Source of the DNA: Gemmatimonadota bacterium
Lineage (GTDB): Bacteria; Gemmatimonadota; Gemmatimonadetes; Palauibacterales; Palauibacteraceae
Length of the DNA: 64,000 nucleotides
Direction of reading: 5' to 3'
NCBI GenBank assembly: GCA_022826685.1
Contig: JAJDUL010000053.1
Span: 1 to 64,000, forward strand
In this document: one piece after another, positions 52,774 to 62,980 of the stretch
How the letters are laid out: the number at the start of each line of letters is the position of its first letter
Numbering within the stretch: position 1 is the first letter of the stretch
The notes under the pieces: generated by a model
What the model was told of the DNA's origin: nothing
Seen by the model: only the letters and a program-made list of their open reading frames with translations
Databases searched by the model: none
Translations under genes and position numbers: made by a program

Positions 52774-53985
52774 ATGCGCCGTAGAAGTCTCGCCGTAATC
52801 GGCGGTATCGTCCTCGGAACCGCGGCGATCGTGGCTCTCCTGCTCGTCCTGGCGCCGGAACCCGAAGCGCGGGACCTCCCACCGCAGATCCCCTTTGCCC
52901 AGACGGCCTCCGTGACGGCCGGGTCCGGAGCGATCCCGGTCCATGGATCGGGCACCGTACGCCCCAGAGCCGAAATCAACGTCGCACCTCAGGTCGGCGG
53001 TCAGGTCGTCTGGGTCGACCCGGGGTTCCAGAGCGGCGGGCGGGTGGAAACGGGGCAGACGCTCTTCCGCATCGACGAAACCGACTACCTGTACCGGGTG
53101 CAGGAAGCCGAGGCCAATCTCGCGTCACGCCGCGTGGCCTTCCTGGAGGAGCAGGAACGATCCGGGATCGCCCTCGACCAGTACAGGCTCTATTCGGAAC
53201 GGCGGGCGGGAGACGGCTCTTCGACGGACCCGAGTCCGCTGACGCTGCGGGAGCCTCAACTCGAGGCGGCGCGCGCCGCGCTCAAGCGCGATGAGGCCCG
53301 TCTCGCCGACGCCAACCTTGCCCTGTCGAGGACCGAGGTTAAGGCGCCGTTCACCGGATTCGTGCGCGACGAGTCCGTAGCGGTCGGACAGATCGTTTCG
53401 CCGGGCGAGCCGGTCGGACGGCTGTTCGCCGCCGACGCGATCGAGGTGAACGTGTCCCTGTCCCATGCCGATGCGGTGTTGATTCCCGGTCTGTGGGAGC
53501 TTCAGGGCGGAGGCGGAGCGTCGCGCGTGGGCGCGCGCGTCGTCGCACGCTACGGCGAGACCGGCTACAGCTGGGAAGGGTACGTCGACCGGGGCGAGGT
53601 TTCGCTCGACGAGCAGACGCGGACGGTGGACGTGGTCGTGCGTGTCCCGGACCCGTTCTCGGCGGGCGTCGCGGTGGAAGGGGGCGATCCGGCCGGCGGA
53701 ACGCCGCCCCTGCTCGTGGGTGAGTTCGTCGACGTGGAGATCGAGGGCCTGTCTCCCGATCGTTACTTCCGCGCGCCACGCGCCGCCCTGCAACCGGGGA
53801 ACGAGGTGTGGGCGGTGAACGATGGCGGCGTTGTGAGCATCGTCTCCGTGCGCGTGCTGCAGCGTGCGGACGACGAAGTGTTTGTCACCGGCGCTCTGCG
53901 GGACGGGCAGGCGGTGATCACCGGCGGAATCCGGTTCGCGACGGAAGGGATGCTCGTTCAGACCGGGGCCCAGCCCGAGCAATGA
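52774..53985 (+). CDS. RND efflux periplasmic adaptor (membrane fusion protein)
   Basis: 403 residues. One N-terminal membrane anchor (AVIGGIVLGTAAIVALLLV), the first lipoyl half (GSGTVRPRAEINVAPQVGGQ), an alpha-hairpin (about 110-190), the second lipoyl half (TEVKAPFTGFVRDESVAVGQ), beta-barrel and membrane-proximal domains. It bridges the RND pump to a TolC duct across the periplasm. It is the first gene of the operon, 7 nt before the RND gene. Confidence 0.94.
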   Translation: MRRRSLAVIGGIVLGTAAIVALLLVLAPEPEARDLPPQIPFAQTASVTAGSGAIPVHGSGTVRPRAEINVAPQVGGQVVWVDPGFQSGGRVETGQTLFRIDETDYLYRVQEAEANLASRRVAFLEEQERSGIALDQYRLYSERRAGDGSSTDPSPLTLREPQLEAARAALKRDEARLADANLALSRTEVKAPFTGFVRDESVAVGQIVSPGEPVGRLFAADAIEVNVSLSHADAVLIPGLWELQGGGGASRVGARVVARYGETGYSWEGYVDRGEVSLDEQTRTVDVVVRVPDPFSAGVAVEGGDPAGGTPPLLVGEFVDVEIEGLSPDRYFRAPRAALQPGNEVWAVNDGGVVSIVSVRVLQRADDEVFVTGALRDGQAVITGGIRFATEGMLVQTGAQPEQ

Positions 53986-53992
53986 GCCCGGG

Positions 53993-56900
53993 ATGAGCCG
54001 CAACGGGGAGTTCCACGGCGAACGTCCCGGCCCGATCGCCTACATGGCGAGCAACAGCATTGCCGCCAACCTCCTGATGTTCGGGATCCTCGCCGCCGGA
54101 CTGGTGGCGCTGACCGGCATCGAGCGGGAGGCGTGGCCCACCGTCCCCTTCTATCACGTCGAAGTCTCGATGGTCTATCCCGGCGCCACTCCGGAGGAGG
54201 TCGAGGAGTCGATCGTCGTCAAGATCGAGGACCAGGTCAGCGGACTCGACGATGTGAAGGCCGTCAAATCCGTAGCGGCCCCCGGCGTGGCATCCGTCCG
54301 GATCGAAATGGACTCCGGTACGGACATGGCGCGCGCGCTGGACGACGTCGAATCCGCGGTCAACCGCATCCAGTCGTTTCCGACCGGAGCCGAGCGTCCC
54401 CAGTTCCGGGAGATGACGAACCGCCAGAGCATGATGCGGCTCATCGTCTACGGCGATGTATCCGAGCGGTCGCTGAAGGAACTGGCGTACCAGATCGAGG
54501 ACGAACTCACCACGCTTCCCGCCGTGTCCCAGGTCGACGTCAGCGGCGTACGGCAATACGAGATCTCCATCGAGGTACCGCTCCAGAGGCTGAGAGCCCT
54601 CGGACTCACCCTCGCCGATATCGCCAATACGATTCGCCGCAGCTCGCTGGACCTGTCGGCTGGCAGCATCGATACCCGTGAGTCCCAGGTACGGGTCAGG
54701 ACCCTCGGTCAGAGCTACGACCAGCAGGACTTCGAGGAGATCGTCGTTCTCGGCAACAGCGACGGCACGGTCGTACGCCTGGGCGATATCGCCAGGGTAC
54801 GCGACGAATATCAGGACATCGATCTGATTCTCCGGCACCAGAACCACCCCGCGGTATTCGTGGAGGTTTACCGGGCCGGCGGCGAGCAGGTGATGGATGT
54901 CGCCACAAGCGTGCACGAGCATTTGGCGGACGAGGTGATCCCGTCCCTGCCCGACGGGGTGGGCGTCACGGTCTGGAACGACGAGTCCCGGGACTACAAG
55001 GAACGGGCCGACCTTCTCCTGAAGAACGGGATCCTGGGCCTGCTGCTGGTGCTGATCGCCCTGAGCCTGTTCCTCCAGATCCGGCTCGCCGTGTGGGTCG
55101 CGGTCGGGCTCGCGGTCTCTGGCATCGGCGCGCTCGCCGTCATGCTTGCGCTCGACTATGCGATCAACACGATCTCGCTGTTCTCCTTCGTCCTCGCGAT
55201 CGGCATCATCGTCGACGATGCGATCGTCGTGTCCGAGCAGATCCACCTGGAACGGATGCGGGGGACCCCGGGGGTGCTGGCGGCGATCCGCGGAACGCGA
55301 CGGATCAAGGTGCCGCTGACCTTCGCCGTCCTCACGTCGGTGGCCGCGTTCATGCCGCTCCTCTTCATCCCGGGCGGCGTCGGCGAGACCTGGTCCGCAT
55401 TGCCGGTGATCGTCATCGCCATGCTGATGGTGTCGCTGGTCGAATCGTTGCTGGTGCTGCCCAATCACCTCTCCCATCTGCCCGGCCCGGAATGGGTGCC
55501 GACGAGCGCCCCCGACCGGTTCTTCGCCCGGGTCCAGGATCGCGTGGACAGCGTGCTGAAGCGGTTCGTACGGGGCCCGCTGGACCACGCGCTGCGCTTC
55601 GCGACGCGCGAGCCCGGCATCACGGTGGCGGGAGCGGTCTGCCTGCTCGTGTTGTGCATCTCCCTGCTTCCGGCAGGCATCGTCCCGACCACGTTCGCCG
55701 GTGTCGTCGAGGGGGATTTCGCCACGGCCACGCTGGAAATGCCGGATGGGACGACCGCGCAGCGAACGTACGAAGTCGCCCAGGACCTGGAAGCGGCCGG
55801 ACACAGGGTCATCGAGCGGCTCTCGGCCGACCGGCCCGAGGATGCGCCTCCGCTGCTGTCGGGGGTCACCGTCATGGTCGGCCAGCGGCCGCGGATTCAG
55901 GGCGGAGGGCTGAACCCCGCGCCGACCCTCAATCCCGAAGCCAATATCGCGACCGTCGAGTTGAAGCTCCACGGAGCGCAGCAGCGCCAGGTGTCCACCG
56001 GCGAGGTCGCGCAGGCGTGGCGCGAGGAAGTGGGCATGCTGCCCTATGTACGCAGTCTCACCTTCAGCGCCGAGATCATCGACTTCGGCAACCCTGTCGA
56101 GACCGTTCTGTCCCACCCGGACCCGGAGCGCCTCATCGGCATCGCGGACTCCGTCGTCGTCGGTCTCCGCCGCGTGGGCGGCGTTTTCGACATACGCTCC
56201 GATCACACGCCGGGCATCCCGGAAGTTCAACTCGAGTTGCGGCCGGGAGCGCGAACCCTCGGTCTCACGCTGGAGGACCTGGCGGGGCAGGCGCGGGCCG
56301 CGTTCTTCGGCGCGGAGGCCATGCGGATCCAGCGCGGCCGGGAAGAGGTTCGGGTCTACGTGCGCCTGCCGTCCGATGAACGGGAGTCCGTCACGGACAT
56401 CGAAGGATATCTGCTCCGTACGCCGAGCGGCGGCGAGGTTCCCCTGATCACCGTGGCCTCGTTGAACTCGGGCACCTCGCCCCCCGCGATCCGGCGGAGG
56501 GATGGCCAGCGCGTCGTCACGGTGAGCGCGGATGTGGACCCCGTGGTGATCTCCGGCGGGGAGGCCAACGACATTCTCGTCAATTCGATCCTCGCGGACC
56601 TCACCGACGCGGACCCGGATCTGACGTTCATGCTCGGAGGCGAGCAGCAGCAGCAGGTCGAGTCGCTGGACTCGCTCTATCGCGGGTTTGCGATCGCCAT
56701 GCTCCTCATCTTCGCGCTCCTCGCCATCCCCCTGCGTTCCTGTACCAAGCCGTTCATCATCATGGCCGTCATCCCGTTCGGGTTCGTCGGGGTGATCCTC
56801 GGTCACCTGATTCTGGGAATCGCCGTGAGCGCGCAATCCTTCATGGGTTTCTTCGGTCTCAGCGGCGTGGTCGTGAACGACTCCCTGGTCATGATCGATC

Positions 56901-57211
56901 TCATCGACAGGAAACTCAGGGAAGGCATGCCCGCCCGGACCGCGATCATCGAGGGCGCGAAGGGGCGCTTTCGCCCGATCATGCTCACGTCCGTGACGAC
57001 CTTTCTCGGCTTCACGCCCCTCATTCTCGAACGCGCCATTCAGGCGCAGTTCCTCGTGCCCTTTGCCGCGTCCCTCGGTTTTGGCATCCTTATAACTACA
57101 GCTCTGCTGATGCTGATCGTGCCGGCGCTTTCCACGATCCATCTGCGGCTGACCTCGTCGCGCCGAAGTCCCGGCGTCCACGCGGCGATACAAGAAGCGA
57201 CCTCGGCCTGA
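53993..57211 (+). CDS. RND-family efflux transporter (AcrB-like)
   Basis: 1072 residues, normal for RND pumps: a first helix near 25-45, a large periplasmic loop, six helices, a second loop and five helices. The proton-relay motif in helix 4 is GIIVDDAIVVSEQI, with its aspartate pair. Porter-domain marks are VSMVYPGATPEEVEESI and SGLDDVKAVKSVA. It pumps hydrophobic compounds or lipids out of the periplasm or inner membrane using protons. The P450 fusion gene begins 31 nt downstream, so the pumped compound may be its product. Confidence 0.95.
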   Translation: MSRNGEFHGERPGPIAYMASNSIAANLLMFGILAAGLVALTGIEREAWPTVPFYHVEVSMVYPGATPEEVEESIVVKIEDQVSGLDDVKAVKSVAAPGVASVRIEMDSGTDMARALDDVESAVNRIQSFPTGAERPQFREMTNRQSMMRLIVYGDVSERSLKELAYQIEDELTTLPAVSQVDVSGVRQYEISIEVPLQRLRALGLTLADIANTIRRSSLDLSAGSIDTRESQVRVRTLGQSYDQQDFEEIVVLGNSDGTVVRLGDIARVRDEYQDIDLILRHQNHPAVFVEVYRAGGEQVMDVATSVHEHLADEVIPSLPDGVGVTVWNDESRDYKERADLLLKNGILGLLLVLIALSLFLQIRLAVWVAVGLAVSGIGALAVMLALDYAINTISLFSFVLAIGIIVDDAIVVSEQIHLERMRGTPGVLAAIRGTRRIKVPLTFAVLTSVAAFMPLLFIPGGVGETWSALPVIVIAMLMVSLVESLLVLPNHLSHLPGPEWVPTSAPDRFFARVQDRVDSVLKRFVRGPLDHALRFATREPGITVAGAVCLLVLCISLLPAGIVPTTFAGVVEGDFATATLEMPDGTTAQRTYEVAQDLEAAGHRVIERLSADRPEDAPPLLSGVTVMVGQRPRIQGGGLNPAPTLNPEANIATVELKLHGAQQRQVSTGEVAQAWREEVGMLPYVRSLTFSAEIIDFGNPVETVLSHPDPERLIGIADSVVVGLRRVGGVFDIRSDHTPGIPEVQLELRPGARTLGLTLEDLAGQARAAFFGAEAMRIQRGREEVRVYVRLPSDERESVTDIEGYLLRTPSGGEVPLITVASLNSGTSPPAIRRRDGQRVVTVSADVDPVVISGGEANDILVNSILADLTDADPDLTFMLGGEQQQQVESLDSLYRGFAIAMLLIFALLAIPLRSCTKPFIIMAVIPFGFVGVILGHLILGIAVSAQSFMGFFGLSGVVVNDSLVMIDLIDRKLREGMPARTAIIEGAKGRFRPIMLTSVTTFLGFTPLILERAIQAQFLVPFAASLGFGILITTALLMLIVPALSTIHLRLTSSRRSPGVHAAIQEATSA

Positions 57212-57242
57212 CGGCCGACGTCGCACAGGGAGGTCAAGGCTG

Positions 57243-59267
57243 ATGGCGGTGAAGACCGAGGATGTAGCAACTCAGGCGCTGAGTCTGCCCGAAGAGCTGA
57301 TCCTGATGCTCCTCAACGAGGAGAGCGGCTACTTTCACCAGGTCCCCGGCTGGGAGTTGAACTGCGCCGTCGCCGGCGCGGTACTCGCGGAACTCTCCCT
57401 GCAGTCGCGCATCGACACGGACATGGAGTCCCTGTTCCTGGTGGACCCGACCGAAACCGGCGACCCCGTCCTGGACCCGTTCCTGGAGGAAATCGCAGCG
57501 GCGCCCCGTCAGCGGACCGCCCGGTACTGGATCGAACGGCTCGCTCCCCAGGCGGAATCCATCATCGACCGGACGCTGGAGCGCCTGGTCGACCTGAACA
57601 TCCTGGAACACCACGATGGCGACTTCTGGACGCTGGCTCGCGGTGTCTGGGAGTCCGAACTGTACGGCGCCGCCGAGGAGGGCACCGCACGCCAGTTCAT
57701 CAAGACACGGATCGGCAGGGTCATCTTCACCGACGAGATTCCGGATCCGAGAGACGTCATCATCATCTGCCTGGTGAATACGTGCGACGTCTTTCGCTAC
57801 ATCTTCCAGCTCGACGAGGAGGCGGAGGAACGCATCGAGTTCATCTGCCGGATGGACCTCATCGGCCGGTCCATCGCCGCCGCCGTCGTACACAACCTCG
57901 CCGGCCCCCTGCTCCGCCGTTCGGCCCTGTCCAAGCACATTCCGAAGGTCAAGGCGCGTCACATCCTGCTCAACCCGCACCTGCGCTCCGGCAACCTTCC
58001 CGCGATCGTCGCGGAACTTGCGAAGGAGTACGGGCCGGTGTTCGAGCTCCGCCCGCCGTTCAAGGAGCCCATGCTCATCCTCGTCGGCCCGGAGACGAAC
58101 CGCTGGGCGCACCGGCACGGCCGGATCTACGTGAGAACCAAGGACTATTTTGCCGACTTCGAGAAGGTCTACGGCGCGAACGGCGTGTTGCCGTCGCTGG
58201 ATGGCGCCGACCATTTTCGGCTTCGCAAGGCCATCTCGCCGGCGTATTCCCGCGGGAGACTCGCGGACCAGGCGGACGTTCTCTACGAGTATGCCCGTAA
58301 CTTCATGGCGGACTGGAAGGTCGGCGACACCTACCAGGCGAGGTCGCTGTGCCGCCGAATGGCCAACGGGCAGATTTCGCCTCTGTCCGTCAGCGTCGAT
58401 TCGCAGGACATCTTCGACGATCTGTCGGTGTACAAGGAGCGCGCGCTCACCGTCAAGATCATGAAGGCGATGCCCGGCTTCATGCTGAAAACACCGGGCA
58501 TGAAACGCCGCGCGGCCACGGTCGACACGTTGCTGAAGCGGGTCCAGAGCGTCCATACCACCGAACAGCGCGCCGGATGCCCACGGGACCTGGCGGACGA
58601 CTGGCTCAGCCTGCACGCGAGCGATCCGCAGTTCGTGCCGCAATCGAATCTGCGTTTCGCGCTCTCGGCGGCGCTCGTCGCCAGCGTGTACCTCGGCGAC
58701 GCGCTCAGCTTCGTGGTGTACGCCATGGCGACGCAGCCGGAACTCTACGAACGAATCCGGAGCGAAGCCGATGCGCTCTTCGCGGACGGCGATCCGGATG
58801 CCAACGCCATCACGGGGTCATCGATCGATGTGACCCACCGATTCCTGATGGAATCCCTCCGCATGTATCCGGTCGTCCCGGGGTCCATGCGGACCGTGAT
58901 GAATTCGTGCATGGTCGAGGGCTACGAACTGCCGGTGGGGAGCAACATCTTCATCGCCTCTACGGCCTCCCATTACATGGAAGATGTATTCCCGGACCCG
59001 TTCTCGTTCGACATCGACCGCTACCTGCCGCCACGCGACGAGCACAAGAGTCCGGGGTACGCGCCGTACGGGCTGGGTACGCACACCTGTCTCGGTTTCC
59101 GGTGGATGGAACTGCAGCTGGCGGTCAACGTGCTGATGATCGCGCACTACTTCAGGCTCGAGGTGCCGGAGGGCTACAAGTTCAAGTTCGACCCGCTTCC
59201 GTCGATGAAGCCGAACAAGAAGCTCAAGTTCCACATCGCGGAGCAACACCGCGAGATACCGGTCTAG
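57243..59267 (+). CDS. GPP34 (GOLPH3-like) domain fused to a cytochrome P450
   Basis: 674 residues in one uninterrupted frame. Residues 13-217 match GPP34/GOLPH3: LSLPEELILMLLNEESGY, AGAVLAELSLQSRI, DPTETGDPVLD, YWIERL, ERLVDLNILE and PDPRDVIIICLVNTCDVF. In eukaryotes this fold binds phosphatidylinositol-4-phosphate on Golgi membranes. Residues about 238-660 are a P450: C-helix HFRLRKAISPAYS, ExxR in FLMESLRMYPV (E537, R540) and the heme loop PYGLGTHTCLG (C616). The I-helix reads VASVYLGDALS, lacking the acid/threonine pair. The GPP34 part may dock the enzyme to a membrane lipid. ATG 57243 follows AGGGAGG. Third gene after the RND pair. Substrate unknown. Confidence 0.88.
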   Translation: MAVKTEDVATQALSLPEELILMLLNEESGYFHQVPGWELNCAVAGAVLAELSLQSRIDTDMESLFLVDPTETGDPVLDPFLEEIAAAPRQRTARYWIERLAPQAESIIDRTLERLVDLNILEHHDGDFWTLARGVWESELYGAAEEGTARQFIKTRIGRVIFTDEIPDPRDVIIICLVNTCDVFRYIFQLDEEAEERIEFICRMDLIGRSIAAAVVHNLAGPLLRRSALSKHIPKVKARHILLNPHLRSGNLPAIVAELAKEYGPVFELRPPFKEPMLILVGPETNRWAHRHGRIYVRTKDYFADFEKVYGANGVLPSLDGADHFRLRKAISPAYSRGRLADQADVLYEYARNFMADWKVGDTYQARSLCRRMANGQISPLSVSVDSQDIFDDLSVYKERALTVKIMKAMPGFMLKTPGMKRRAATVDTLLKRVQSVHTTEQRAGCPRDLADDWLSLHASDPQFVPQSNLRFALSAALVASVYLGDALSFVVYAMATQPELYERIRSEADALFADGDPDANAITGSSIDVTHRFLMESLRMYPVVPGSMRTVMNSCMVEGYELPVGSNIFIASTASHYMEDVFPDPFSFDIDRYLPPRDEHKSPGYAPYGLGTHTCLGFRWMELQLAVNVLMIAHYFRLEVPEGYKFKFDPLPSMKPNKKLKFHIAEQHREIPV

Positions 59268-60297
59268 CGTCCCCCTGGTCCGGATAGAACTGCCGGCAAT
59301 ATCGGCGGTACTTCCCTATGGGGCCGTCGGTCCGGCTCAGGCGGGGCGGGGTCCGGTAGCGCTTCCTGTCCCAGATGATCACGTCCTGGAGGACGAACCG
59401 CCTCTCCTCCCGGATGAAGAAGACGTTCAGCAGCCGGTGGCGCAGGGGCACGGGCAGGAAGGCCAGGCCCGCGAAGAACCGCCCCGGTTTCCGGATCTCC
59501 CGCACCTGACTCACGAGCGTCATCTCCACCGATTCGCCGTCCACCGGTGTCGAGAGCACCCAGAGGCGCGAGTTCATGCCGATGTCCTTCTCGTGGATCT
59601 CGACGAAGGAGAAGCCGAATCCATGGACGTGCGTGATGACCGAGATCTCGGAGTGGATCTCCAGCAGACCCGCGATCCGGCGCACATTCCTGAAGTCGAA
59701 GCAGCTCTTCAGGTAGGCGCCGTCGATCGAGAAGTCCGTCGGCTCGACATCGTGGTACCCGTGTGTGTACTCCAGGTGCTCCACGTCCACGGAGTTTTCG
59801 GTCGTCTCCTGGGGGTGGCCCCGGAACCGCAGGGTGGTGGACCGCAACCCGGTCCACTCCGCGTCGTGAGGTTCATCCGGCAGGTGCCACTGAGGCGCCC
59901 GGCCGCCGGTCCCCCACCAGGCGAAGATCATGCCGAGGATCTCCCGGGTCTCGTAGAGCTTCAATCTCGCGGCCTTCGGGGGCGGGGCATTGGGCGTCGC
60001 CACGCACTGGCCGGTCGTGTCGAACTCGAACCCGTGGAAGGGGCACACGAGACAGCCGTCGCGCACCAGGCCGCCCGCGGAGGGTCCCATGTGCGAGCCC
60101 AGGTGGGGACAGAAGGCATCCGCCACGCAGATGCGGCCCTCGTCGTCGGCCCAGGCGACGATCTCCTCGCCCATCCACGTCTTCTCGATGAGCTTCGCGC
60201 GCTCGATGGACGCGCGCTTTCCGATGAAGTACCAGCCTTCGGGAAACGGCGGCAGCGCATCGCTGTACGTCGACGTTCGATTGCTTCTGGTCGTCAT
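59224..60297 (-). CDS. Rieske 2Fe-2S aromatic-ring/steroid-type oxygenase
   Basis: 357 residues. The Rieske cluster is CPHLGSHMG with VCPFHGFEFD (CxH and CxxH). The catalytic iron site is DVEHLEYTHGYHD (H-x4-H). The overall plan and short C-terminus resemble KshA and the DAF-36/Neverland cholesterol desaturases more than benzoate-type dioxygenases, so a sterol-, hopanoid- or other lipid-like substrate is plausible. ATG 60297 begins the Rieske domain properly; the open frame goes on to 60549 with no signal. Its 3' end overlaps the P450 gene by 44 nt on the opposite strand. No dedicated reductase gene is adjacent. Confidence 0.9.
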   Translation of the reverse strand: MTTRSNRTSTYSDALPPFPEGWYFIGKRASIERAKLIEKTWMGEEIVAWADDEGRICVADAFCPHLGSHMGPSAGGLVRDGCLVCPFHGFEFDTTGQCVATPNAPPPKAARLKLYETREILGMIFAWWGTGGRAPQWHLPDEPHDAEWTGLRSTTLRFRGHPQETTENSVDVEHLEYTHGYHDVEPTDFSIDGAYLKSCFDFRNVRRIAGLLEIHSEISVITHVHGFGFSFVEIHEKDIGMNSRLWVLSTPVDGESVEMTLVSQVREIRKPGRFFAGLAFLPVPLRHRLLNVFFIREERRFVLQDVIIWDRKRYRTPPRLSRTDGPIGKYRRYCRQFYPDQGDARPVSRGVAPRCGT

Positions 60298-60373: not shown

Positions 60374-62980
60374 ATGGCTCTCGATAGTATCCCGCGCGTC
60401 GCGCTCCCTGCGCTCTTCGTCGCGGTGGCCACGGGCTTGCCCGCGAACGGCTCCGGCCAGTCCGCAGCCGGGGTTCCGCGTTTCGGGATCGCGCCTTCGC
60501 CGATCGAACTCACGGGACCCGTGCGTCCCGGCGAGTATCTCGGCGTCACCGGGCCCCGGTCCGCGTGGCTGGGGCTCGAGACGGGCGAAGCGGAACTGTG
60601 GGTCCATCCCCTGAAGGTCGGGAACCGTTTCCGGCTCGGCTTCTCGACGCCGGCCTACGGGACGCCGATTCCGGGAGACGAGGTCGCGCGCACCGTGCAG
60701 GTTCGGCCCGAACTCACGACGATCACCTACAGCCACGCCGCCTTCCAGGTGCGCCAGCACATCCTCGCGCCGGCCGACCTCCCCGGCCTTCTGCTCCTGC
60801 TCGACGTGGACAGCCCGGAACCGCTCGAGATCATCGCGGAGTTCGAGCCCGTCCTGAACTACATGTGGCCGGGTTCGATCGGGGGGCAGTACGCCTACTG
60901 GGACGCCGACCGTCGCGTCTTCGTGCTCTCCGAGAGCCTGCAGGAGAGAAACGCCGTCGTCGGCTCTCCGTGGGCCGTGAACTCCGTGGAACACCCCGCC
61001 CATCAACTGGGCGAGGCGCCGCGCACCATGGTGATCCCGGTCGACCCGGAGCGCGCGCGGCGGGAGTTCATCCCGATCGCGGTGGCGGGCGGAACCACGC
61101 CCCGCGAGGAGGTCTTCGCCAGCTACGAACGGCTGATCGCCGAGGCGCGCTCGCTCTACGACGCGAAGCGGGCATGGGCCGACTCGGTGCTCGCCTCCAC
61201 CGCCTCCATCGAATCGCCGGATCCGCGGCTCGACCTCGCACTCGAGTGGGCAAAGATCAACCTGGAGGAGCAGCGCGTCTGCAACCCCGACCTCGGCTGC
61301 GGGTTCGTCGCCGGGTGGGGCCATTCCCGCAACGGAACCCGTCCCGGCTTCGGCTGGTTCTTCGGCGGCGACGCGGCGCAGACGATGTTCGCCATGGAGG
61401 CGCTCGGGCAGTGGGAACTGGTGGCGGAGGAGCTCGCCTTTCTCGCGACGTACCAGCGCGAGGACGGCAAGATCACGCACGAAATCTCTCAGGCGGCCGC
61501 GCGCATCCCGTGGTTCGACGTGTACCCGTACGCCTACTACCACGCCGACACGACGCCCTACTGGATGGTCGCGCTCTACGAGTACTGGCGGGCGAGCGGC
61601 GACGACGACCTCCTGCGGGAACTGTGGCCGGCGTACCGGCGCGCCTGGGCGTGGTGCCTCACCGCCGAGACGGACGGGGACGGGCTCATCGAGAACACCG
61701 TGGGTGGGCTCGCGGCGGTCGAGGTCGGCGGCCTGGGGGCCGCGCTGCACCAGGATATCTACCTGGCGGGGATCTGGGTGGCGGCGCTTGAAGGGACGAT
61801 GGCGTTGGCCGAACGCATGGGCGACGCGGGGATCGCGGACCGGGCGCGGGAACTCGCTCCCCGCGCGCGGGCGACCCTGAACAACGCGTACTGGCTGGAC
61901 GACGCCGGATATCATGCCTTCGGGATCCTCGCCGATGGCGGAACCAACGACAACCTCACCGTGTGGCCTGCCACGGCGGCGGCGTTCGGCCTGTTCGACG
62001 AGGCGCGCGCCCGGGCGACCCTCGCCCACCTCGCGAGCGACCGGATTTCGTCGGACTGGGGCGCGCACATGCTCTCCACGGAGAGCGAACTGTATCACCC
62101 CCTCCAGTACAACATGGGAACGGTATGGCCCTTCGTGACGGGATACGTGTCGTGGGCCCAGTACCGGTATCGGCGTCCGTGGGCCGGCTTCCATCTCATG
62201 GACGCGGTGAAACAGATGACCTTCGACTGGAGCCTGGGACGACACCCGGAGTTGCTGTCCGGAACGTTCTACGAGCCCCTCGACCAGACCGTCCCCCACC
62301 AGTTCTTCGCGACCTCGGCGCTGGTGACACCGTTACTGCGCGGCGTCATCGGCTGGGAACCCGATGCGCCGCTGGACCGCGTGCGCCTCGCCCCGCAGCT
62401 CCCGCCGGACTGGCCGGCCGTGACGGTGAGACGGCTCCGAGCCGGGGAGACGACGACGGACGTGGAGATCCGACAACGGTGGACGGAGGAAGGCGGGGAG
62501 CAACGGACGACGCTCACGACCAGGGGGCCTGCGCTGACATTCGGCCTCGTACCCGACGTGCCGGCAGGCGCGCGGGACGTGTCCATCAGCGTGAACGGAG
62601 TAGCCACCGAACTCACCGAGGATGGAACGGTGGAGATGACGCTGGGCGAGACCGGCGCTGCGGACGATCGCGCGGAAATCGTCGTGACGTGGAATGGCGG
62701 ACTCGCGATCGCGCCGCCCCGGATCGACCTTGAGCCCGGCCAAGGGAGCAACGGCCTGCGCATCCTCGACTTCAACGCAGATCCCGACGGTTGGACTCTC
62801 GAAGTGGAGGGGGTGGCAGGTCGGAGTTACGAGCTTGGAATCTTCGGCGCCACGGTCGAACCTGACGTCGTGGAAGGCGCCGCAACGACTGCCCTCGCCA
62901 ACCGCGTGACCGTACGCATCACATTTCCCCCGGGCACCGCGGAACGCACGACAGCTGTGGTTCGTTTTATGACCCCGTAA
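60374..62980 (+). CDS. Secreted amylo-alpha-1,6-glucosidase-like (six-hairpin) glycoside hydrolase
   Basis: 868 residues. A signal peptide is followed by an N-terminal beta-sandwich (about 30-275) and an (alpha/alpha)6 barrel (about 285-690). Typical catalytic-region motifs are AGWGHSRNGTRPGFGWFFGGD and its downstream carboxylates, HEISQAA, and YNMGTVWPFVTGY; the plan is that of glycogen-debranching GDE-C and GH63/GH15 relatives. A C-terminal beta domain (about 700-868) completes it. It should hydrolyse alpha-linked glucans or glycans outside the cytoplasm. ATG 60374 follows GGAGGGG. It is divergent from the Rieske gene and appears to stand alone. Confidence 0.82.
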   Translation: MALDSIPRVALPALFVAVATGLPANGSGQSAAGVPRFGIAPSPIELTGPVRPGEYLGVTGPRSAWLGLETGEAELWVHPLKVGNRFRLGFSTPAYGTPIPGDEVARTVQVRPELTTITYSHAAFQVRQHILAPADLPGLLLLLDVDSPEPLEIIAEFEPVLNYMWPGSIGGQYAYWDADRRVFVLSESLQERNAVVGSPWAVNSVEHPAHQLGEAPRTMVIPVDPERARREFIPIAVAGGTTPREEVFASYERLIAEARSLYDAKRAWADSVLASTASIESPDPRLDLALEWAKINLEEQRVCNPDLGCGFVAGWGHSRNGTRPGFGWFFGGDAAQTMFAMEALGQWELVAEELAFLATYQREDGKITHEISQAAARIPWFDVYPYAYYHADTTPYWMVALYEYWRASGDDDLLRELWPAYRRAWAWCLTAETDGDGLIENTVGGLAAVEVGGLGAALHQDIYLAGIWVAALEGTMALAERMGDAGIADRARELAPRARATLNNAYWLDDAGYHAFGILADGGTNDNLTVWPATAAAFGLFDEARARATLAHLASDRISSDWGAHMLSTESELYHPLQYNMGTVWPFVTGYVSWAQYRYRRPWAGFHLMDAVKQMTFDWSLGRHPELLSGTFYEPLDQTVPHQFFATSALVTPLLRGVIGWEPDAPLDRVRLAPQLPPDWPAVTVRRLRAGETTTDVEIRQRWTEEGGEQRTTLTTRGPALTFGLVPDVPAGARDVSISVNGVATELTEDGTVEMTLGETGAADDRAEIVVTWNGGLAIAPPRIDLEPGQGSNGLRILDFNADPDGWTLEVEGVAGRSYELGIFGATVEPDVVEGAATTALANRVTVRITFPPGTAERTTAVVRFMTP

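Follow-up and report, generated by a model that had tools for sequence, protein, structure and literature searches.

Few functions have been assigned to the GPP34 domains of bacteria. Streptomyces SCO4440, likewise a bacterial protein with a GOLPH3-like domain, has been linked to peptidoglycan and wall-deficient cells (PMC12402492); it differs from the gene described here in being a stand-alone protein, and the likeness is drawn from its description. In GOLPH3 itself, the PI4P residues are W81, R90, R171 and R174 (PMC13408441). With respect to sterols, the closest described systems are the sponge-symbiont CSGs of PMC9531527, for which horizontal transfer is reported, the SMT clusters of PMC10070321 (SMT denoting a homologue of sterol 24-C-methyltransferase, or sterol-24-methyltransferase) and the msb cluster of PMC7074536, which have ERG24, CYP51, cyclase, SMT and Rieske genes in common with our loci. 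However, no GPP34-P450 gene is seen in the available portions of these three reports; the main text of PMC10070321 mentions neither GOLPH3 nor cytochrome, and that of PMC7074536 does not mention P450. The origin of the unusual sponge sterols, in the animals or in their bacteria, is an open question, and the 24-isopropyl sterols among them are the basis of a claimed earliest animal biomarker (PMC10070321).

The window, a 64,000-nucleotide stretch of a Gemmatimonadota contig, holds at 57243..59267 (+) a single open frame of 674 aa in which a GPP34 domain and a cytochrome P450 are fused. It is preceded by AGGGAGGT at 57227..57234 (+), read directly from the DNA as the likely ribosome-binding site. 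The GPP34 domain (PF05719) covers residues 15-215 (57285..57887, +; E 4.6e-33, 115.4 bits against a Pfam cut-off of 29.1), and the P450 domain (PF00067) covers residues 248-660 (57984..59222, +; E 3.3e-37, 128.8 bits against a cut-off of 22.8), so that the two-domain gene proposed in an earlier note on this DNA is borne out by both profiles. The two domains are connected by residues 216-247 (57888..57983, +), where model confidence falls below 50 at residues 222-227. The AlphaFold2 model of the whole protein has a pLDDT of 84.5 and a pTM of 0.77; the structure-prediction alignment comprised the window protein and 75 proteins from 74 of 80 loci. These loci are the best 80 of 190 stretches encoding a relative, which were obtained by scanning 84,980 species genomes for a pattern, and all 80 carry both domains, full-length, at 65-75% identity. 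The earlier note had named the opposite outcome, separate genes run together by a sequencing error at 57890-57960. Because a full-length fusion occurs in every kept locus (80/80) and third-position GC is equal on the two sides of the junction (0.861 and 0.863), a sequencing error or chimera was ruled out. The fusion protein is real, its gene is no singleton but a member of a large family, and the architecture read earlier stands while the mechanism is reinterpreted below. No published account of such a fusion was found in the literature searched on GPP34 or GOLPH3 with P450, bacteria, sponges or symbionts, in line with the novelty supposed in that note.

By superposing the predicted GPP34 part on solved structures, the relationship with GOLPH3 may be evaluated. 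The AlphaFold2 model of this part alone (pLDDT 83.9, pTM 0.83) gave eight Foldseek matches at E<=0.001, all of them GOLPH3 or Vps74, with query-normalised TM values of 0.60-0.69; the entries 9qpq, 3kn1, 2zih, 4tu3 and 2zii are matched at E 7e-9 to 1.3e-5. The overlay suggested earlier therefore returns the GOLPH3/Vps74 fold. In sequence searches a profile was required for this match: PDB phmmer with the GPP34 part alone returned nothing at E<=0.1, and the profile search reached GOLPH3 3kn1 at E 1.7e-10. The fusion shares with GOLPH3/Vps74 the predicted fold, most of the domain and a hydrophobic hairpin tip, whereas the stretch W161-L170 of GOLPH3 is absent and the P450 is added. The PI4P residues are also different. 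In the HMMER profile alignment, W81, R90, R171 and R174 of GOLPH3 correspond to P35, A44, E105 and I108 of the fusion, and the three arginine positions lie within gap-free helix stretches. R156 and R159, which the earlier note had put at the basic phosphate-contacting positions of GOLPH3, align with none of the PI4P residues and were rejected as PI4P contacts; R156 is invariant in 106/106 distinct fusion proteins, whereas position 159 varies (commonest letters K 37, N 23, R 22, Q 9, E 8 and D 5). Its placement of W37 near the GOLPH3 tryptophan was fair, since W37 lies two residues from the partner of W81, beside a one-residue gap. On the other hand, the window's subfamily conserves the hydrophobic residues F128-W129-T130-L131 at 90% or more, F128-T130 fall opposite F194-L196 in the membrane-inserting hairpin of GOLPH3, and the tip is retained across the part aligned with GOLPH3 190-201. 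With the hairpin tip kept and the PI4P residues lost, GPP34-type membrane docking of the fusion appears plausible and GOLPH3-type reading of PI4P does not. The earlier proposal that lipid-headgroup recognition positions the P450 is thus retained in part: placement at a membrane, near its lipid, would be plausible, but the headgroup idea fails as stated because the PI4P arginines are not conserved.

In the P450 domain, motifs were compared in 106 distinct fusion proteins, three short or cut proteins having been dropped beforehand. The heme-binding loop P608-G618 (59064..59096, +) with C616 and the ExxR motif E537-R540 (58851..58862, +) are those of P450 enzymes, C616, E537 and R540 being kept in 106/106 proteins, and R593 is among the columns conserved at 98% or more (at least 104/106). 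The 50 Foldseek matches listed for the whole model are headed by CYP184A1 with oleic acid and include CYP51, BM3 and CYP3A4; solved sterol P450s share about 20-22% identity with the fusion. The I-helix stretch A480-A487 (ASVYLGDA; 58680..58703, +) is unusual. The acid-alcohol pair of other P450s, together with one residue, is absent in 101/106 fusions, and the window's fusion, of subfamily A (ASV-YLGDA), therefore lacks this hallmark of a canonical monooxygenase. Subfamily B has AGH-YLGSA or AGH-YTGSA. The five fusions of subfamily C, with VGLDTTAST (3), AGLHTAASV (1) and VGTDTVGVT (1), keep the pair partly or wholly (T in 5/5, D in 4/5). Loss of the pair is known among P450s of unusual mechanism, and the chemistry of the fusions without it may be unusual as well. 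Given this loss, the reaction in the window's subfamily is probably substrate-assisted or peroxide-type, or else an isomerisation or dehydration. CYP51, the sterol 14-demethylase, has the P450 fold and a sterol gene neighbourhood in common with the fusion and is among its best PDB sequence matches. It differs, however, in having a gene of its own in the Nitrospirota loci and in lying outside the fusion clade of the P450-domain tree, where three CYP51s form their own clade (support 100/100); a 14-demethylase function of the fusion was rejected on these grounds.

Upstream of the fusion in the window lie a probable RND periplasmic adaptor (52774..53985, +), assigned by eye from its position, and an AcrB-type RND pump (53993..57211, +; Pfam ACR_tran 528.7 bits), whose stop codon is 31 bp from the fusion ATG; strand and spacing make it likely that pump and fusion belong to the same operon. 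Downstream, a convergent gene for a KshA-like Rieske oxygenase of 357 aa (59224..60297, -) overlaps the 3' end of the fusion by 44 bp; its longer frame scores 59.4 bits for Pfam Rieske and 79.2 bits for KshA_C, and both metal motifs are present. The Rieske gene is in turn adjoined by a divergent GH116/MGH1-like glycoside hydrolase (60374-62980, +).

Across the 80 loci, five neighbour types recur: the Rieske oxygenase (54 loci), an FAD oxidase (43), SMT (42), a sterol-sensing MMPL protein (27) and the RND pump (16); only the first and the last of these adjoin the window fusion. The adaptor (6), ERG24 (6), CYP51 (5) and an epoxidase-cyclase (4) are rarer. Counting was at E<=1e-25 with half coverage of one representative each, and for CYP51 also at 30% identity; this stricter search superseded a first pass by single linkage (48, 39, 38, 35 and 16 loci). 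When the flanks are full (46 loci), at least one of the five types is found in 44 and at least two in 33; none is found in 7/80 loci, four of these seven being on pieces shorter than 12 kb. Both metal motifs are kept in 54/54 Rieske neighbours, and Sterol_MT_C was over its cut-off in both SMT neighbours scanned (L062 and L036). Single representatives gave 66 bits for Sterol_MT_C, 83 for KshA_C, 78 for Amino_oxidase, 156 for MMPL with 56 for Sterol-sensing, and 249 for ERG4_ERG24. The best solved relative of the FAD neighbour is LkcE, and the Rieske neighbours reach 33 and 38 bits with the sterol C-4 demethylase model SdmA, far below its cut-off of 600. The Rieske gene also stands beside the subfamily-B fusion of L129 and the A2 fusion of L134. 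The flanks of the seven Nitrospirota-titled loci hold CYP51 in five, a squalene epoxidase-oxidosqualene cyclase in four and ERG24 in four; an ordinary P450 in L095 matches CYP51 at E 4e-101, and the epoxidase-cyclase scores 724 bits with TIGR03463, below the cut-off of 851, and exceeds the cut-off of TIGR01787. In L082 (12455-15883, -), squalene epoxidase is fused to oxidosqualene cyclase, as in msbE (PMC7074536). No SMT, Rieske or FAD gene was found near the five subfamily-C loci or seven stand-alone GPP34 loci, and one subfamily-C locus has an RND gene nearby. These five loci (L119, L126, L132, L120 and L121), with their I-helix threonine, perhaps serve another role. No redox-partner gene is among the annotated neighbour types, which take in a minority of the rarer ones. 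The sterol-type gene neighbourhood of the GPP34-P450 fusion is a new observation.

The kinship of the P450 domain leads to a sterol cluster as well. The nearest unfused P450 found is WP_227398350 of Planktothrix agardhii plasmid p2 (28.5% identity, E 6e-42), which is the only match to the P450 half at E<=1e-18 among 72,556 plasmid records. It is the second P450 of a sterol cluster with an epoxidase, a cyclase, CYP51, an ERG24-like gene and two Rieske genes, and it differs from the fusion in having no GPP34 domain and in keeping the I-helix E-T pair (GGMETAAN). In the record of this cluster (L136, NZ_LR882940.1 40796-61986), the ERG24-like gene is annotated as hypothetical.

Similarly, the fusion co-occurs with sterol genes at the genome level. 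At E<=1e-40, the fusion is matched in 44/246 genomes of the window's class, some of which carry subfamily C alone; for G079 the match is limited to GPP34, and for G213 to the P450 part. The class of L040 has 21/197 such genomes, one of which (G385) is matched solely in GPP34. SMT was found in 32/43 fusion carriers of the window's class against 2/203 others (G079 excluded; 31/42 against 3/204 when G213 is not taken as a carrier) and in 19/20 carriers against 0/177 others in the class of L040, with kinship and habitat uncorrected. Of the 32 genomes of the window's class with both genes, 24 have SMT no more than 8 kb from the fusion and the other 8 have it on a different contig; in the class of L040 it is within 10 kb of the best fusion match in only 5/19. 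With G079 counted and the same lack of correction, ERG4_ERG24 occurs in 21/44 carriers of the window's class against 2/202 others, and a cyclase at E<=1e-80 in 5/44 against 4/202. A second set, made up of the genomes behind 44/80 loci, has at least three genomes in common with the class set. Here, SMT is present in 31 and SMT without cyclase in 28, and oxidosqualene cyclase was found in 6/44, all titled Nitrospirota. Since no such cyclase was found in most of the carriers examined, remodelling of imported sterols is probable. At the limits used, neither SMT nor ERG24 nor cyclase was found in the window genome, which is 90.85% complete.

The locus titles name 11 phyla, and 80/80 records are titled as MAGs. 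The isolate prefixes or titles of several fusion loci resemble those of sponge metagenome sets, so we presume these to be sponge-symbiont MAGs. The sponges listed by PMC8163846 include Rhopaloeides, Coscinoderma, Ircinia, Cliona and Aplysina, and Ircinia sets are described in PMC9531527. Judged from record titles, the fusion is found in many apparently sponge-dwelling bacteria. Identities to the window's protein are 64-75% in subfamily A, 53-54% in A2, 44-45% in B and 32-38% in C; further fusions in the class of L040 (54-61%) are outside the trees, and stand-alone GPP34 paralogues, mostly of about 220 aa, have 41-47%. In the P450-domain tree, rooted by midpoint as was the GPP34 tree, the fusions form one clade (81/90, under the star mark), which the Planktothrix P450 adjoins (91/94). 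In the GPP34 tree, the fused domains group apart from the stand-alone ones (96/97), with C apart from A and B. Both trees are consistent with a single origin of the fusion and with loss of the acid-alcohol pair ahead of the split between A and B. On a tree of 85 fusions from 75/80 loci (L022, L029, L037, L042 and L044 left out as identical proteins), the 11 title phyla require 15 changes against a least possible 10 and a shuffled mean of 38.1, and starred branches force at least four changes for Chloroflexota and at least three for Pseudomonadota. The gene therefore appears to track the phyla to some extent and to have crossed between them several times, although mis-titled or mis-binned contigs and paralogues may add changes. 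In fact, L037, L042 and L044, titled Gammaproteobacteria, encode exactly the fusion proteins of G091, G180 and G217 in the window's class, which makes title-based phylum counts unsafe. Carriage by phage or plasmid was rejected: none of 72,556 plasmid and 50,697 phage records covers 80% of the query, and none of the 14 stretches that fit the pattern in a pattern-limited IMG/VR scan encodes a relative.

Based on neighbourhood, kinship and co-occurrence, it is fairly probable that the fusion is a membrane-docked P450 that tailors sterols, mostly imported ones. Its lipid partner is likely a sterol, which the earlier note had not proposed. The GPP34 domain would serve as a peripheral membrane adaptor through its hydrophobic hairpin, not through the PI4P site of GOLPH3, and would keep the P450 at the membrane's inner face, where it could take up sterol. 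It would work with the KshA-like Rieske oxygenase, the FAD oxidase and the sterol 24-C-methyltransferase, sterol being moved by RND or MMPL pumps, and the carriers would thereby remodel sterols from the host or other symbionts.

The Rieske neighbour, with its KshA_C domain, could instead point to catabolism, in which fusion and Rieske enzyme help to use host sterols as a carbon source by a route like the 9,10-seco pathway. Sponges are enriched in steroid-degradation genes, with a KshA cluster of sponge MAG proteins only (PMC5790920). However, KshA-type Rieske genes are present in the Planktothrix sterol cluster too, and the recurrent neighbour is a methyltransferase of the side-chain-adding kind, so we regard degradation as unlikely. 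TIGR03213, an extradiol dioxygenase model standing in for HsaC, was over its cut-off in 0/45 carriers (the 44 genomes and G000, added for this model and for hopene cyclase); a match at E<=1e-10 occurs in 15/45, one of them strong (G274, E 4.2e-80), and none in the window genome. This test is weak because the search included no genome known to hold HsaC. No ring-cleavage gene that could serve as a probe was found around the Rieske matches on one Rhodococcus and one Novosphingobium plasmid.

Nor does it seem probable that the P450 acts on a different lipid, polycyclic or fatty (a hopanoid, carotenoid or fatty acid), and that the sterol link is incidental. The MMPL neighbour resembles HpnN too, though at 114 bits against a cut-off of 752; hopene cyclase is present in 20/45 carriers but was not found at E<=1e-40 in the other 25, the window genome included; and SMT scores as CMAS too, yet both SMT neighbours scanned exceeded the cut-off of Sterol_MT_C. 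The oleic acid in the top fold match would suit a fatty substrate, whereas the grouping of the fusion P450s with the Planktothrix sterol-cluster P450 argues for a sterol. There is little likelihood that GPP34 serves for dimerisation or protein-protein contacts and so links the P450 to the Rieske enzyme or methyltransferase. Loss of the PI4P arginines would agree with such a role, as would the binding of protein tails by GOLPH3 (PMC13408441), but the hydrophobic hairpin tip retained in the window's subfamily speaks for a membrane adaptor.

With this fusion, a bacterial GPP34 domain is linked to an enzyme and to a probable pathway. A fusion that closely tracks SMT in mostly cyclase-less carriers points to bacterial sterol editing and offers a named enzyme for assay in the sponge-sterol question, and the I-helix change within one fusion family is a natural experiment on P450 oxygen activation. 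A wider and rather doubtful reading is that the genes form a laterally shared sterol-remodelling set, by which sponge symbionts of several phyla edit sterols that they cannot make; the docked P450, its common oxygen-activating residues abandoned, would act in a substrate-assisted or a non-monooxygenase way and would thereby add to the odd biomarker sterols of sponges.

Several loci show additional or altered copies. The fusion of L017 (G005) is broken into two frames inside the P450 and may be a decayed or mis-assembled copy. A frame of 71 aa at the end of the Rieske gene (L029:12663-12878, L037:12342-12557 and L127:13444-13659, -; L037 and L127 are one and the same locus) has a match (53-55%) to no more of the fusion P450 than its final 54 residues, and is perhaps the remnant of a second copy. 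Subfamily B occurs once in tandem beside A (G071), and two tandem stand-alone GPP34 genes lie at L131:5513-7044 in a fusion-bearing genome.
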